Shown here piece by piece: positions 3 to 5,163 of a stretch of 64,000 nucleotides of DNA. Under the pieces are notes generated by a model. It was given only the letters and a program-made list of their open reading frames with translations. It was not told where the DNA came from and did no database searches. Position numbers and translations under genes: made by a program. Source of the DNA: Sporosarcina sp. NCCP-2716 (GTDB lineage: Bacteria; Bacillota; Bacilli; Bacillales_A; Planococcaceae); contig NZ_BRCF01000001.1 in the NCBI RefSeq assembly GCF_023707985.1, positions 245,967 to 309,966 of the forward strand, written 5' to 3'. Within the stretch, counting starts at the first letter, position 1. Each line of letters opens with the position of its first letter.

Positions 3-1016
3 AAAGCGCGCAGGGAAATTATCGAGCGTCTGGAAGCGGGGGAGATCGATCTGCTGATCGGCACACACGCACTCATTCAGCCGGATGTGAATTTCCACAG
101 GCTGGGGCTTGTCATCACGGACGAACAGCACCGGTTCGGCGTCGAACAGCGGCGTGTGCTGCGGGATAAGGGGGAGCATCCGGACGTACTATTCATGACC
201 GCGACCCCGATCCCCCGGACGCTCGCCATCACGGCGTTCGGGGAGATGGACGTCTCCCTGCTCGACGAAATGCCAGCCGGCCGCAAAGAGATCGAAACCC
301 ACTGGCTGAAAGAAGACTCGCTCGCCCCGGTGCTGAGAAGGATGGAGAAGGAACTGCAGGCAGGACGCCAGGCATATGTCATCTGTCCGCTCATCGAAGA
401 GTCCGATACGCTCGATGTCCAGAATGCCGTCGACGTGTTCGGACAGCTGTCGGCTTACTTCGCAGGCAGGTTCACTGTCGGTCTGATGCATGGCCGGCTC
501 CATGCCGATGAAAAAGAGCAGGTCATGCGTGACTTCAGTGAAGGCAGGATCGACTGCCTTGTGTCCACGACGGTCGTCGAGGTCGGTGTCAACGTGCCGA
601 ATGCGACGTTCATGCTCATCTATGACGCGACCCGGTTCGGCCTGGCTCAGCTCCATCAGCTCAGGGGACGGGTCGGCCGAGGAGCGGACCAGTCCTACTG
701 CATCCTGCTTGCGGACCCGAAAACCGAAGAAGGAAAAGAGCGCATGATGACCATGTCCGAAACGAATGACGGGTTCCTGCTCGCCGAAAAAGACTTGGAA
801 CTGCGCGGGTCCGGTGACTTCTTCGGCAAGAAACAGAGTGGGCTTCCGGAATTCAAGATGGCGGACCTCGTCCACGATTTCCGGGCGCTCGAGACGGCTA
901 GGCAGGATGCGGAACGGCTGCTGGAATCCGATGAGTTTTGGAACGATGGCGCATATGACGGCCTCCGCCGGACAGTGGAAGAATCGGGGGTCCTGCAGAG
1001 CGAGCGGATCGACTAG
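3..1016 (+). CDS. recG: ATP-dependent DNA helicase RecG (C-terminal part)
   Basis: This is the 3' half of recG, with the reading frame open to the left edge; 337 residues remain, against about 680 for the full family. RecG unwinds branched DNA and remodels stalled replication forks and Holliday junctions. The visible part holds the helicase motifs in order: a DEQHRFG box (motif II), TATPIPRT (motif III), [14 protein letters not shown] (motif V) and QLRGRVGRG (motif VI), followed by the C-terminal TRG region. The N-terminal wedge domain lies outside the window. The next gene is fapR, as in B. subtilis. A weak GC hairpin follows the stop at about 1023-1039 but lacks a T-run. Confidence 0.96.
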
Positions 1017-1110
1017 ACGATAGCCGGCTGATACCCGGCGTGGGGTCCATTACAGCCGGCCTGCGGAACGGCCGAATCCAAACAGCAGAATGCAAATGAG
1101 CAGACCGCTC

Positions 1111-1139
1111 TTGCATTCTTTTTTTTTACTTTATATACT
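1111..1139 (+). promoter_or_regulatory. sigma-A promoter of the fapR operon
   Basis: A -35 box TTGCAT (1111-1116) and a -10 box TATACT (1134-1139) are separated by exactly 17 bases. The predicted start of transcription falls near 1146, inside the FapR operator that follows, which is the geometry expected for repression. The fapR TTG start lies about 35 bases further on. Confidence 0.75.
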
Positions 1140-1142
1140 GTT

Positions 1143-1161
1143 ACTATTACCAAGTGCTAAT
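1143..1161 (-). promoter_or_regulatory. FapR operator
   Basis: Read on the - strand, these 19 bases match the FapR palindrome ATTAGTACCTGGTACTAAT at 15 of 19 positions. The site overlaps the predicted transcription start just downstream of the -10 box. FapR is known to bind such sites and to be released by malonyl-CoA, so fapR-plsX-fabD-fabG is probably autoregulated by malonyl-CoA. Confidence 0.75.
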
Positions 1162-1179
1162 CAGGGAGGGCGGACGGCG

Positions 1180-1758
1180 TTGCGATTACAAAAAAAAGAG
1201 CGTCAGCAAAAACTTCAGCAGCTGCTGGAGACGACCCCTTTCCTGACGGATGAAGAAATTGCAGCACACTTCGACGTCAGTGTGCAGACCATCCGGCTGG
1301 ATCGGCTCGAGTGCGGAATCCCCGAACTCCGGGAACGGCTCCGTTCGGCAGCGGCCGAAACGATTGCCGGCAAAGTGAAGGCGCTTGAAGAAGACGAAGT
1401 GATCGGGGAAATCATTGATATCGAACTGGACAGCAAGGCGATTTCCATCCTGGACATCACCCCTGCCCACGTGTTCCAGAAAAGCGGGATCGCCCGGGGT
1501 CATCATCTGTTCGCCCAGGCCAATTCGCTCGCCGTCGCCGTACTCGACGATGAGCTGGCGCTGACAGCGAAATGCGTCCTGCATTTCGTGAAGCCGGTCA
1601 AGGCGGGGGACCGTGTCGTCGCCCGTGCCGTTGTCCGCGGACGGAAGGACAGCCGGTCCATCGTCGATGTCTCATCAGCCGTCGGGGAAGAGCCCGTTTT
1701 CAGCGGTGAGTTCCACATGTACCGCGCTGCCGGGACCAACAAGGAGGAAGCGGAATGA
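1180..1758 (+). CDS. fapR: FapR, malonyl-CoA-responsive repressor of fatty acid and phospholipid synthesis
   Basis: FapR represses the fatty-acid and phospholipid genes and is induced by malonyl-CoA. The protein has an N-terminal helix-turn-helix (around residues 22-45, [19 protein letters not shown]) and a C-terminal hotdog-fold effector domain (about 75-185) with the family stretch around HVFQKSG and [12 protein letters not shown]. The start is taken as TTG at 1180, preceded by a GGGAGG ribosome site, giving 192 residues against 188 in B. subtilis; an open frame from ATG 1090 would include the promoter and is not credible. The stop overlaps the plsX start by four bases, so the two are translationally coupled. 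Confidence 0.93.
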
Positions 1759-2747
1759 GAATTGCAGTCGATGGAATGGGCGGTGACCACGCCCCGAAGG
1801 AAATCATAGCAGGCGTGCTGCAGAGCCTGGAGGAATTCAGTGATATACATATACAGCTGTATGGCGACCGGGAGGCGATGGCCCCTTATCTGACAGACCA
1901 TGACCGACTGACAGTCGTCCACTGCAGCGAAAAGATCGAGCCGGAGGACGAACCTGTGCGTGCCGTGCGCCGGAAAAAGGATGCTTCGATGGTGCGGATG
2001 GCGCAGGCCGTGAAAGACGGCGAAGCGGATGCCTGCGTCTCAGCGGGTAATACGGGAGCCCTCATGGCAGCGGGTCTTTTCATCGTCGGGCGGATCGACG
2101 GAATCGAACGTCCGGCCTTGGCGCCGACACTTCCGACTCTCGGCGGGGAAGGGTTCGTACTGCTCGATGTCGGTGCGAATGCCGACGCGAAGCCGAGCCA
2201 GCTCGTCCAGTATGCGATCATGGGCAGCATCTATGCGGATAAAGTCCGGGGGATCCGAAACCCGCGTGTCGGCCTGCTGAATATCGGCACGGAAGCGGGA
2301 AAAGGGAACGATCTGACGAAAGAGGCCTATGAAGCATTGCAGGCGGCGCCGCTGAACTTCATTGGCAATATCGAAGCGCGTGACCTGCTGACAGGAGTGG
2401 CGGACGTCGCCGTGACGGACGGCTTCACAGGCAACATGGTGCTGAAGACGATCGAAGGGACTGCAGCCGGCCTGTTCTCGATGCTGAAAGATGTCTTCGC
2501 ATCTTCCGTGAAGACGAAGCTTGCCGCTGCTCTCGTGAAAGACGACCTGCGCGGACTGAAGAAACAGATGGATTACACGGAATACGGAGGAGCGGGACTG
2601 TTCGGACTGAACTCCCCCGTCATCAAGGCCCACGGTTCATCGAACGCCAACGCACTGAAGAATGCAGTGCGGCAGGCACGGACGATGGCAGCGCATCACG
2701 TGAGCGAAACGATCCGCGAAACGATTGTTGAGGAGGAAGCACGATGA
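1755..2747 (+). CDS. plsX: PlsX, phosphate acyltransferase
   Basis: PlsX converts acyl-ACP and phosphate to acyl-phosphate, the acyl donor that PlsY uses to make lysophosphatidic acid; it is a peripheral membrane enzyme. The protein has 330 residues, the usual length, begins with the family motif DGMGGDHAP and carries [10 protein letters not shown] near residue 95. It overlaps fapR and fabD by ATGA junctions and has a strong AAGGAGGA ribosome site. It is the second gene of the FapR-controlled operon. Confidence 0.96.
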
Positions 2748-3685
2748 CGAAAATAGCATTCTTGTTCCCGGGACAGGGGTCACAGAAAGTCGGTATGGGA
2801 ACGGAACTGGCCGCGGAAGCCGGCGGGCGCGTGTTCTTTGAAACCGCTGACCGTGTGCTCGAATTCCCACTGAGCAAACTCATGGAAGAAGGGCCTCAGG
2901 AAGAACTGACTGTCACGTATAACGCCCAGCCGGCGCTGCTGACGGTCGGCGCGATGGTGGCGGACCGCCTGAAACAGGCAGGCATCCGGCCGGACTGTAC
3001 GGCGGGCCACAGCCTTGGGGAATACACGGCGCTCTATGCAGCCGGTGCCTTATCATTCGAAGATGCCGTGCAGACCGTCCATAAGCGCGGGCTGTTCATG
3101 AACGAAGCGATGCCGGCAGGAGAAGGCGGCATGGCCGCGATTCTCGGTTTGGATGAAGAAACTGTTTCGGACGTCACTGCAGCCATCACTGCGGAAGGGA
3201 AGCTGGTACAGCCCGCGAACTTGAACTGCCCCGGTCAGATCGTCATTTCGGGCACGAAGGCCGGCGTCGAGGAAGCGTGTGTCCGCCTGAAGGAAGCCGG
3301 TGCAAAACGGGCTCTCGTACTGGACGTCAGCGGACCGTTCCATTCCGAACTGATGCGCCCGGCAGCCGGGAAACTCGGGGAAGTCCTCGAGAGCCTGGAA
3401 ATGCAGGATGCGGCAGTGCCTGTGTTCGCAAACGTGACGGCTCAGCCTGTCACGGACAGCGGTGAAGTGAAACGGCTGCTGATCGAACAGCTGTCCTCGC
3501 CTGTCCGCTGGGAAGAATTGGTGCGCCATATGATCGAGTCGGGTGTCACGCAGTTCATCGAATGCGGACCGGGCAAAGTACTGAGCGGTCTTGTACGCAA
3601 GATCGACAGGTCCATGACCGTCTGGCCGGTATACGACGAAGAGACGCTGGCAGCCGTCATTGAAGCAGCAAAGGAGTGGGCATGA
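2744..3685 (+). CDS. fabD: FabD, malonyl-CoA:ACP transacylase
   Basis: FabD moves malonyl groups from CoA to acyl carrier protein, supplying the elongation cycle of type II fatty acid synthesis in the cytoplasm. The 313-residue protein has the N-terminal FPGQGSQ motif and the nucleophile elbow GHSLGEY with Ser90 as catalytic residue; the conserved PFHSELM box follows near residue 200. ATG 2744 overlaps the plsX stop and the gene stop overlaps the fabG start, which fits tight co-translation. Confidence 0.97.
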
Positions 3686-4431
3686 TGGGGAAATTCACAG
3701 GAAAAACAGCGGTCGTGACCGGTGCATCCCGCGGGATCGGCCGGGAAGTCGCACTGCTGCTCGCTCGTGAAGGGGCAAGTATCGCGGTGAACTACAGCGG
3801 CAGCAAGGATCGTGCAGATGAAGTCGTCACCGAAATCGAGGCGGGCGGCGGACGGGCTGTCGCCATCCAGGCGAATGTCACCGATCCAGACAGCGTGAAA
3901 GCGATGATGGATGAGACGCTCAAAACATTCGGATCAATCGATCTGCTCGTCAACAATGCAGGAATCACGAAGGACAATCTATTGATGCGCATGAAAGAAG
4001 ACGAGTGGGATGCTGTCATCGATACGAATCTGAAAGGGGTTTTCCTCTGTACGAAAGCCGTTTCCCGTCAGATGATGAAACAGCGGGCCGGCCGGATCGT
4101 CAACATGGCATCCGTCGTCGGCATCGCAGGCAATGCGGGGCAGGCCAACTATGTGGCAGCCAAAGCCGGCGTCATCGGTCTGACGAAGACGACTGCGAAA
4201 GAGCTTGCTGCACGCGGGATCACCGTGAATGCCGTTGCTCCGGGGTTCATCACCACGGATATGACGGATGCCCTCGGCGGAGACGTCAAGGATCAGCTGC
4301 TCAACAGCATTCCGCTTGGATCCCTCGGGCGTCCGGAAGATGTGGCGAAAGCTGTTGCGTTCTTTTTATCGGATGATGCGTCCTATATTACCGGACAGGT
4401 GCTCAATGTCGACGGCGGCATGGTGATGTAA
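3682..4431 (+). CDS. fabG: FabG, 3-oxoacyl-ACP reductase
   Basis: FabG reduces 3-oxoacyl-ACP with NADPH in each round of fatty acid elongation. It is a short-chain dehydrogenase with the cofactor motif TGASRGIG (residues 13-20), NNAG (91-94) and the catalytic Ser144, Tyr157 and Lys161. The start is ATG 3682, which overlaps the fabD stop as ATGA and lies 6 bases from AAAGGAG; a GTG at 3676 in the same frame overlaps that ribosome site and is less likely. The 249 residues are the normal length. In B. subtilis acpA follows closely; here a repeat array intervenes. Confidence 0.96.
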
Positions 4432-4458
4432 CCTGTGCCTGCGCTTTTTGTACAGGCT

Positions 4459-4570
4459 AGCTCCGGCGGGCAGGGCTCGGGGGCGCTTCGGTGCTGAAGA
4501 CAAGGCAGAGAGCGCCTTGTGCTTTAGCCCCTCCAGCGCCCGTCGCCCTAGGCGCCCGCCTGCGCTTTTT
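4459..4570 (+). repeat. Repeat copy 1
   Basis: The outer helix pairs GGCGGGC plus AGGGC (4465-4476) with GCCCT (4545-4549) and GCCCGCC (4554-4560). The long hairpin pairs GCTGAAG and ACAAGGC (4493-4506) with GCCTTGT (4514-4520) and CTTTAGC (4522-4528), with a single bulged G at 4521 and one G-U pair. A run of five T follows GCGC at 4566-4570. Confidence 0.8.
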
Positions 4571-4579
4571 GTGTAATCC

Positions 4580-4692
4580 AGCTTCGGCGTCCAGAGGCTC
4601 GGGGTCGCTTCGGAATTGAAAACAGGACAAAAAGCGTCCTGTTCTTCAATTCCTCCAGCGCCTGTCGCCTCTCCCGGGCCGCCTGCGCTTTC
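4580..4692 (+). repeat. Repeat copy 2 (diverged, pairing conserved)
   Basis: The same layout is kept with different bases. AATTGAA and AACAGGAC (4614-4628) pair with GTCCTGTT (4636-4643) and TTCAATT (4645-4651) with one bulged base at 4644. In the outer helix GAGGC (4594-4598) pairs with GCCTC (4667-4671) and GGCG (4586-4589) with CGCC (4680-4683). The closing T-run is interrupted (TTTCT). Confidence 0.8.
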
Positions 4693-4702
4693 TGTGCAAT
4701 CC

Positions 4703-4814
4703 AGCTCCGGCGGGCAGGGCTCGGGGTCGCTTCGGTGCTGAAGACAAGGCAGAGAGCGCCTTGTGCTTCAGCCCCTCCAGCGCCCGTCGCCCTAGGCGCC
4801 CGCCTGCGCTTTTT
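4703..4814 (+). repeat. Repeat copy 3
   Basis: Nearly identical to copy 1. The long hairpin pairs GCTGAAG and ACAAGGC (4737-4750) with GCCTTGT (4758-4764) and a perfect CTTCAGC (4766-4772). The element ends in GCGC and five T, directly before the acpP ribosome site, so it would form the 5' leader of any acpP mRNA read from upstream. Confidence 0.8.
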
Positions 4815-4836
4815 ACTTTGAAAGGGGGTGAATGTA

Positions 4837-5073
4837 TTGTCTACTGTATTGGATCGTGTGACGAAAGTGGTTATTGACCGTTTAGGGGTTGATGAGAGCG
4901 AAGTGAAACCCGAAGCTTCTTTCCGTGATGATCTCGGCGCCGACTCGTTGGATGTCGTTGAGCTCGTGATGGAATTGGAAGATGAATTCGACATGGAAAT
5001 TTCCGATGACGACGCTGAGAAAATCGGCACTGTCGGGGATGCTGTCTCATATATCGAAGAAAAAACAAAATGA
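4837..5073 (+). CDS. acpP: Acyl carrier protein
   Basis: ACP carries growing acyl chains on a 4'-phosphopantetheine arm. The attachment site is Ser37 in the motif [22 protein letters not shown] 4837 is chosen as the start because AAAGGGGGTG at 4821-4830 then lies 6 bases upstream and the product, 78 residues, matches the family; GTG 4828 lies inside that ribosome site. The gene follows the repeat array, so transcripts from the fapR promoter must pass three strong hairpins to reach it. A terminator follows at 5083. Confidence 0.95.
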
Positions 5074-5082
5074 GTGTAGCAC

Positions 5083-5129
5083 AGAGACACCTCCGTCCTT
5101 TCCCCGGAAAGTGCGGACGTGTCTCTTTT
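5083..5129 (+). terminator. Terminator after acpP
   Basis: AGAGACAC (5083-5090) pairs with GTGTCTCT (5119-5126); inside it GTCC pairs with GGAC and CTTTCC with GGAAAG; a T-run follows. It closes the fatty-acid operon. Confidence 0.8.
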
Positions 5130-5134
5130 CCATT

Positions 5135-5163
5135 TTGCACTGCGCCTGCCGACAAGGTAGAAT
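5135..5163 (+). promoter_or_regulatory. Promoter of rnc-smc-ftsY
   Basis: TTGCAC (5135-5140) and TAGAAT (5158-5163) are 17 bases apart, between the acpP terminator and the rnc ribosome site. Confidence 0.6.

Follow-up and report, generated by a model that had tools for sequence, protein, structure and literature searches.

Operon-internal stabilising hairpins, dispersed bacterial repeats (bcr, REP) and Bacillaceae-1 RNA are already known. In Bacillus subtilis, the operons cggR-gapA and glnRA carry an internal hairpin beside the more strongly needed gene, where it stabilises the cleaved downstream mRNA; for cggR-gapA, stabilising the cleaved product is described as the main effect of the downstream hairpin (passages on these operons in PMC11780869). 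In S. aureus, an RNase III cut in the long 5' hairpin of cspA stabilises the mRNA, as stated in an excerpt of PMC3386247. The cip-cel operon of Ruminiclostridium cellulolyticum has intergenic GC-rich stem-loops that serve cleavage and stoichiometry, according to the portion of PMC10311766 that describes them. Among dispersed repeats, bcr1-bcr18 of the Bacillus cereus group are intergenic repeats of Bacilli, about half of which are transcribed in UTRs and operon gaps, and mRNAs carrying bcr3 have longer half-lives (excerpt of PMC3446304). REP sequences are palindromes scattered through genomes, and they frequently lie against a stop codon or provide one (section on REP in PMC3733652). Finally, Bacillaceae-1 is a structured motif of Bacilli that a table entry in PMC2864571 marks as RNA and not as cis-regulatory.

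Repeats between bacterial genes tend to be dismissed as selfish clutter of unknown effect. Here we describe a tandem array of such a repeat between two fatty-acid genes, fabG and acpP, of the soil bacterium Sporosarcina sp. NCCP-2716, found in a stretch of 64,000 nucleotides that was analysed as a whole (the window). The cggR-gapA and glnRA operons, as presented in the passages of PMC11780869 cited above, differ from it in having neither a tandem array nor a dispersed repeat family, and cleavage was measured there, whereas for the array it is proposed. The cip-cel operon concerns other genes and is likened to the array by description, not by sequence (PMC10311766, same portion); bcr1-3, which the excerpt of PMC3446304 describes as MITE-like, are likewise set beside it by description only. 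REP units are 20-40 bp long with GTAG or CGTC tags (PMC3733652, same section), compared with a unit of about 117 nt with stacked helices in the array. Bacillaceae-1 RNA is nested in this very unit in some relatives, yet it has 67 nt and two small hairpins, runs on the strand opposite to the unit, and is absent from the window copies.

The array is vertically inherited and kept in sense orientation. We tentatively favour the reading that its hairpins shield the acpP end of the fapR-plsX-fabD-fabG-acpP messenger, which on comparative sequence grounds is quite possible, if somewhat short of probable. The family can be followed locus by locus: it is constrained and faces one way at fabG-acpP, is antisense both in rRNA operons and at rho-rpmE, and hosts Bacillaceae-1 in some relatives. 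It thereby offers a natural test case for the conversion of repeats into regulatory RNA, and for how an excess of acyl carrier protein (ACP) may be kept without a dedicated promoter.

Structure of the array and its operon

The gap between fabG and acpP is filled by three in-register repeat copies and the 3' remnant of a further one, with the fabG stop codon (4431) on one side and the acpP ribosome-binding region (4820) on the other. All features given here are on the + strand. Copy 1 (subtype A) occupies 4456..4570, copy 2 (subtype B) 4577..4693 and copy 3 (subtype A) 4700..4814; the copies are 115-117 nt long, and their starts are spaced by 121 and 123 nt. The triple tandem repeat that a sequence-only reading had reported in this gap was therefore borne out. 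That reading had set its start at 4437 and had noted a GCGC box ending in T. The box held, as each full copy ends with GCGCTTT, while the start did not: the first full copy begins at 4456, and the stretch 4435..4450, just behind the fabG stop, corresponds to the 3' end of a full copy and is the leftover of another one.

Copies 1 and 3 are 95-97% identical to each other and 74-80% identical to copy 2, whose subtype is the one shared with a more distant sub-clade. The three copies match R1, the covariance model of the repeat unit, over the full unit with 105-114 bits (L033:1129-1243, 105.6 bits; L033:1250-1366, 107.1 bits; L033:1373-1487, 114.1 bits), a match by construction, since all three are in its training set. 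Independently of R1, blastn matched the window copies to copies in 23 other genomes of the relatives set. It is unlikely that the array is an artefact of assembly, because 1 to 6 related copies were found in the orthologous gap of eight of nine other close genomes; the ninth, G064, has none in its gap. The order A-B-A or A-B-B-A is frequent (L057, L066, L095, L099 and window 4456-4814), and over 16 arrays identity was 0.81 between next-but-one copies versus 0.75 between neighbours. The arrays thus look as if identical neighbours had been lost.

FabD, FabG, AcpP and RNase III were assigned by NCBIfam models, with TIGR01830 matching fabG (3676..4431, 347.8 bits) and TIGR00517 matching acpP (4837..5073, 110.7 bits). 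The T-run of copy 3 stops 5 nt upstream of the acpP ribosome-binding region, GAAAGGGGGTGA at 4820..4831, from the position of which we infer that acpP starts with the TTG at 4837. Behind acpP there is a hairpin with a T-rich tail (5083..5132; fold -25.5 kcal/mol, z -5.8), which can be aligned across the acpP-rnc gap of nine close genomes, followed by a promoter-like site before rnc (5134..5163, TTTGCA-18-TAGAAT, a consensus match only). As predicted from its fold, this hairpin is likely the end of the operon transcript; together with the promoter-like site, it makes acpP the likely last gene of that transcript.

Distribution and descent of the copies

The fabG-acpP gap was extracted from all 68 Sporosarcina genomes, following a suggestion of the sequence-only reading to look at it in sister species. 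At least one unit was present in 35 of the 68 gaps, with 79 copies altogether and 1 to 6 per gap; these counts include three in-gap matches under 21 bits (L065, L059, L086), without which they are 32 genomes and 76 copies. L080 holds a copy with a long deletion, and G077 has six copies in series. An unrelated hairpin repeat, GGCGGCGACTCC...GGAAAGCGTCCGCC, lies in the same gap of nine of the 68 genomes (L050:1345-1462 and the gaps of eight others), in one fixed orientation in 9/9. Three of these nine genomes are also among the 35, and the gap of G064, which lacks the unit, carries this repeat. It is dispersed as well, with matches in 65/68 genomes and 12 in the window's genome. The remaining 27 gaps were classed as without either repeat, a class that includes L069, with two Bacillaceae-1 hairpins, and L072, with an unclassified hairpin-like stretch.

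Copies from the ten close genomes gave a clear picture of descent. Their 66 R1 matches comprise 30 in the gap, 11 at rho-rpmE, 23 in rRNA operons and 2 elsewhere, and an element tree was built from 62 of them, that is, all except four short rRNA copies. The 30 gap copies formed one clade with support of 98/97. The 11 rho copies grouped as a second clade at lower support (81/81). The rRNA copies stood apart, except L311, which grouped with the gap and rho groups. Recent mobility at the locus would have scattered gap copies among copies from other loci, and no such scatter was seen. Subtypes inside the gap clade are common to several species. These results indicate that the array was probably multi-copy already in the common ancestor, without separate landings, and they contradict, for this lineage, the idea of the sequence-only reading that small mobile elements had landed here repeatedly.

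The same clade bears on another explanation, in which insertions favour the fabG-acpP gap as a hotspot and a target preference sets the fixed orientation. The presence of two unrelated repeat families in the gap would agree with it, as would gap copies in other genera (L122, L152, L164), which lie reversed, antisense behind the fabG stop. We regard a hotspot as very improbable, because the single clade of copies in the close genomes shows that this lineage had no repeated landing.

Across the remaining species of the genus, where non-gap copies were sampled from a minority of the genomes, 35/40 gap copies have their closest match in a gap copy of another species and 5/40 in a copy elsewhere, which makes some replacement likely there. 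The genus-wide element tree, of 206 copies of 100-125 nt, had 14 label changes and was poorly resolved.

We then compared identity at the array with that at fourfold sites. Fourfold-site agreement of the window genome (G000) was 107/305 (0.35) with G083 and 83/225 (0.37) with G077, while subtype B, copy 2 against the best copies of either genome, was 0.92 identical. Subtype A copies reached 0.75-0.79 against their best match in G083/G077, and all three window copies 0.69-0.77 against G024 and G020. The acpP-rnc gap, with its terminator-like hairpin, gave 0.73-0.74. The identity of subtype B, far above fourfold sites, suggests constraint, although gene conversion among copies could raise the values.

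Predicted fold and covariation

The predicted fold of each copy consists of an outer helix closing on GCTTT, a middle helix and, at the apex, a long hairpin; copy 1 reaches -66.7 kcal/mol. Against dinucleotide shuffles the copies had z values of -3.4 (1/200 as good), -5.2 (0/200) and -4.0 (0/200), so the outer helix and long terminal hairpin seen earlier from sequence alone are upheld as predictions. In alignment A1, 33 copies hand-picked from the 68 gaps, RNAalifold gave 33 pairs; 93.8% of 1089 cells were paired, and 27/33 pairs showed two-sided changes. The covariation score was 0.672 against a shuffled mean of 0.232, with 0/500 shuffles as high, for a structure derived from the same sequences as tested, and it dropped to 0.085-0.149 when the partner was slid. 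One of five covariation measures, the number of further pair types in A1, was not above shuffles (66 vs 63.8; 137/500). One helix is swapped whole between types, being CGCT/AGCG in one and CATAAG/CTTATG in another. Collectively, the copies share a predicted RNA fold that is conserved and lies between two genes of the same operon, as would be expected of a hairpin-stabilised operon processing element.

Well-paired columns held 1425 Watson-Crick, 22 GU, 11 AC and 13 other combinations; they are nearly all Watson-Crick with few wobble intermediates. In a wobble test for selection on the + strand RNA, which kept 75 gap copies and left out seven loci, the GU share was 0.63-0.67, with 95% ranges that include 0.5. 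The near-absence of wobble would suit hairpins that act as DNA, as a protein-binding, supercoil-relief or cruciform site between genes, and so would the location of close-clade copies in rRNA, rho-rpmE and fab units. A cruciform or supercoil site could lie in either direction, but all gap copies (79/79) point the same way, which a single founding insertion would also explain. We consider a role as DNA improbable.

The fold also raises the possibility of serial partial terminators, at which a share of polymerases would stop before acpP, tuning acpP down relative to fabG. The GC-rich outer helix closes directly on a short T-run, and terminator-like matches occur at copies 1 and 3 (4550-4567 and the weak match 4794-4811), each with a shorter overlapping match, giving 4 versus a shuffled mean of 1.6 (sd 1.5). 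However, the T-runs are short, copy 2 (TTTCT) has no terminator-like match, so that the + strand pattern is confined to copies 1 and 3, and G077 carries six copies in series.

The ribosome-binding region was also folded in context. Its unpaired share was 0.30 with the native array, 0.54 with the array reversed and 0.25 without it; the idea that sense orientation is needed to free this region was thus unsupported by folding.

Orientation and spread of the repeat family

All gap copies in Sporosarcina (79/79) lie in sense, in the direction of transcription. The rRNA-operon copies sampled (L213 and L214 in the window's genome, and L227, L234, L251, L269, L274, L277, L282, L298-L304, L307, L309, L311-L317) are antisense to the rRNA in 28/28 cases, 23 of them in the close clade and 5 in G084, G018 and G029; those among them that are related by descent are not independent. 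They lie between 16S and 23S, between 23S and 5S, or behind 5S. We further sampled 72 chosen sites in 28 genomes with a longest-ORF caller, setting the L222 and G005 loci aside. Five sites were in rRNA operons and two uncallable, and 65 were counted, six of them being the same rho-rpmE site in six genomes. Flanking genes were opposed to the element ('<E<') at 35 sites, codirectional ('>E>') at 13, convergent at 13 and divergent at 4. At 29/65 sites a gene running towards the element ended within a few bases of the element's T-run end. Against this antisense bias elsewhere, the uniform sense array in Sporosarcina is an exception, although a single founding insertion would also fix the orientation. 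The bias is at the same time what partial terminators would lead one to expect: if sense copies stop transcription, they should be scarce in rRNA operons (0/28) and in codirectional gaps (13 vs 35, p 0.002 ignoring kinship).

The rho copies lie antisense directly behind the rho reading frame (L305:1528-1765, L221:1256-1615, L222, L217, L218, L306, L308). The name rho was assigned at L305; the other loci have the same end of a 431-aa frame or were paired with such a locus, and two have an L31 leader match. This site appears as a second long-term residence of the family.

A search of the genome and its relatives with the repeat model, as the sequence-only reading had advised, gave five R1 matches (E up to 1) in the window's genome and matches in 67/68 Sporosarcina genomes. 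The five are the three gap copies, one full copy between 23S and 5S rRNA (L213:96-212) and one weak part-copy behind 5S (L214:268-321; 26.6 bits). Both rRNA-region copies sit near contig ends, and since the assembly has a completeness rating of 92% and 20 contigs, further copies could be missing from it. Nine Sporosarcina genomes have at least 54 R1 matches each. R1 matched 156/200 genomes drawn from the order, all in the same family (Planococcaceae) among the matches listed, and 41/299 genomes drawn from the class, 20 of which are outside the family. The sequence-only reading was thus correct that such repeats are dispersed in Bacillaceae-type genomes: the unit is common in Planococcaceae and present in other Bacilli.

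No Rfam model (release 15, 4227 models) matched at or above its gathering threshold in the 64 kb window, and cargo of a phage or plasmid was rejected, with no match by distant blastn. No account of the 117-nt unit was found in titles and abstract starts of open-licence papers, and a literature search with the letters of the repeat returned unrelated papers.

Such dispersal invites the explanation that the copies were left behind by a selfish interspersed repeat and have no effect at this locus, their persistence being due to slow decay, gene conversion between copies and occasional replacement. It is in keeping with the many copies in the nine genomes above, with their frequent position against the end of a gene running towards them, with the A-B-A pattern of the arrays, and with the Bacillaceae-1 hairpins nested in some relatives, as layered insertions would give. 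What speaks against it is that copies form clades by locus, with few elsewhere (2/66 outside the gap, rho-rpmE and rRNA operons in the ten close genomes), and that subtype B is conserved far beyond fourfold sites, though here conversion could again contribute. On balance we think it unlikely that the copies are relics.

Promoter box upstream of acpP

In order to compare promoters directly before acpP, a -10 box was scored as TATAAT or TATACT in the last 50 nt upstream of the gene, which occurred in 6.4% of shuffles. The box was found in 59/67 loci of other genera. In Sporosarcina, it was present in 18/27 repeat-free gaps vs 1/41 repeat-filled gaps (Fisher p 6e-9 ignoring kinship). This contrast is clustered on the tree, with 15 of the 18 box-bearing genomes in one clade, and an independent-pairs test of repeat against box had only 5 pairs and was not significant. 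Bhargavaea, Edaphobacillus and the Sporosarcina clade L036-L039 have neither box nor repeats; the box can therefore be lost without an array. No account of an array standing where relatives have a promoter was found in titles and abstract starts of open-licence papers.

The last 50 nt before acpP in the window contain neither TATAAT nor TATACT. A consensus scan of limited sensitivity found no sigma-70-type promoter on the + strand of 3600-4837, array included; the scan is not a sensitive one, as it also failed to find the operon's own promoter at 900-3600. A promoter hidden in the array was accordingly set aside on the result of a scan that missed the operon's own. For partial terminators, an essential and abundant acpP (general knowledge) with no promoter found between the last copy and the gene is a difficulty, and we judge them distinctly unlikely.

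Proposed role of the array

If the array instead acts as a hairpin shield, the long mRNA would be transcribed through it and cut at or just before it by an endonuclease of the host, possibly RNase Y or RNase III. This would leave a short downstream acpP mRNA, flanked by stable hairpins on the 5' side and by the -25.5 kcal/mol hairpin at the 3' end. Such an mRNA would resist decay from both ends, and acpP would accumulate above fabD and fabG. In repeat-free relatives, the same surplus of acpP would come from the promoter directly before the gene. Cells need much ACP, and the shield would join this need with the sense orientation, the structure, the constraint, the missing promoter box and the hairpin behind acpP. 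Cleavage and protection are proposed by analogy with cggR-gapA, cip-cel and cspA. Against the shield speak the low similarity of the copies in G024 and G020, the loss of the array in G064, the clustering of the promoter contrast on the tree, the small gain in predicted access to the ribosome-binding region and the strand on which the nested Bacillaceae-1 RNA lies.

A role in the transcript that sets acpP apart from fabD and fabG had been among the proposals of the sequence-only reading. This part fits the retention of the array, its sense orientation, the covariation and the missing promoter box. A broader version is more doubtful, namely that a dispersed repeat was co-opted to set gene ratios from within the operon, that the acpP promoter was swapped for sense hairpin arrays and, elsewhere in the genus, for the unrelated hairpin repeat, and that RNA stability replaced a promoter more than once; we consider it rather unlikely, if a serious possibility.

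Bacillaceae-1 RNA and copies at other loci

Bacillaceae-1 RNA (RF01690) gave 9 matches in the loci of 7 relatives, 5/9 of them inside a unit match and each on the opposite strand. It is nested in long unit copies in the fabG-acpP gap of L055 (1376-1441) and L098 (776-842) and elsewhere at L189, L242 and L275, and it lies beside unit pieces in L059 and L069. RF01690 was found neither in the window nor in L033, and the three window copies lack it. These sequence matches suggest that the Bacillaceae-1 orphan motif can be a nested module of a larger repeat, and nesting in this repeat may account for its spread. At the gap loci (L055, L059, L069, L098) the motif is antisense to acpP in 6/6 matches; the strand known as RNA is therefore not the strand transcribed with acpP.

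Some copies lie near SAM riboswitches (S box leaders) and antisense to them (L240:1501-1735, L206, L241, L201), falling between leader and coding sequence as far as simple ORF calls show. In two genomes of the S. ureae group, whose clade has retained the promoter box of acpP, copies are placed behind the gene, in antisense, and not before it (L100:3225-3460, L063:105-275).
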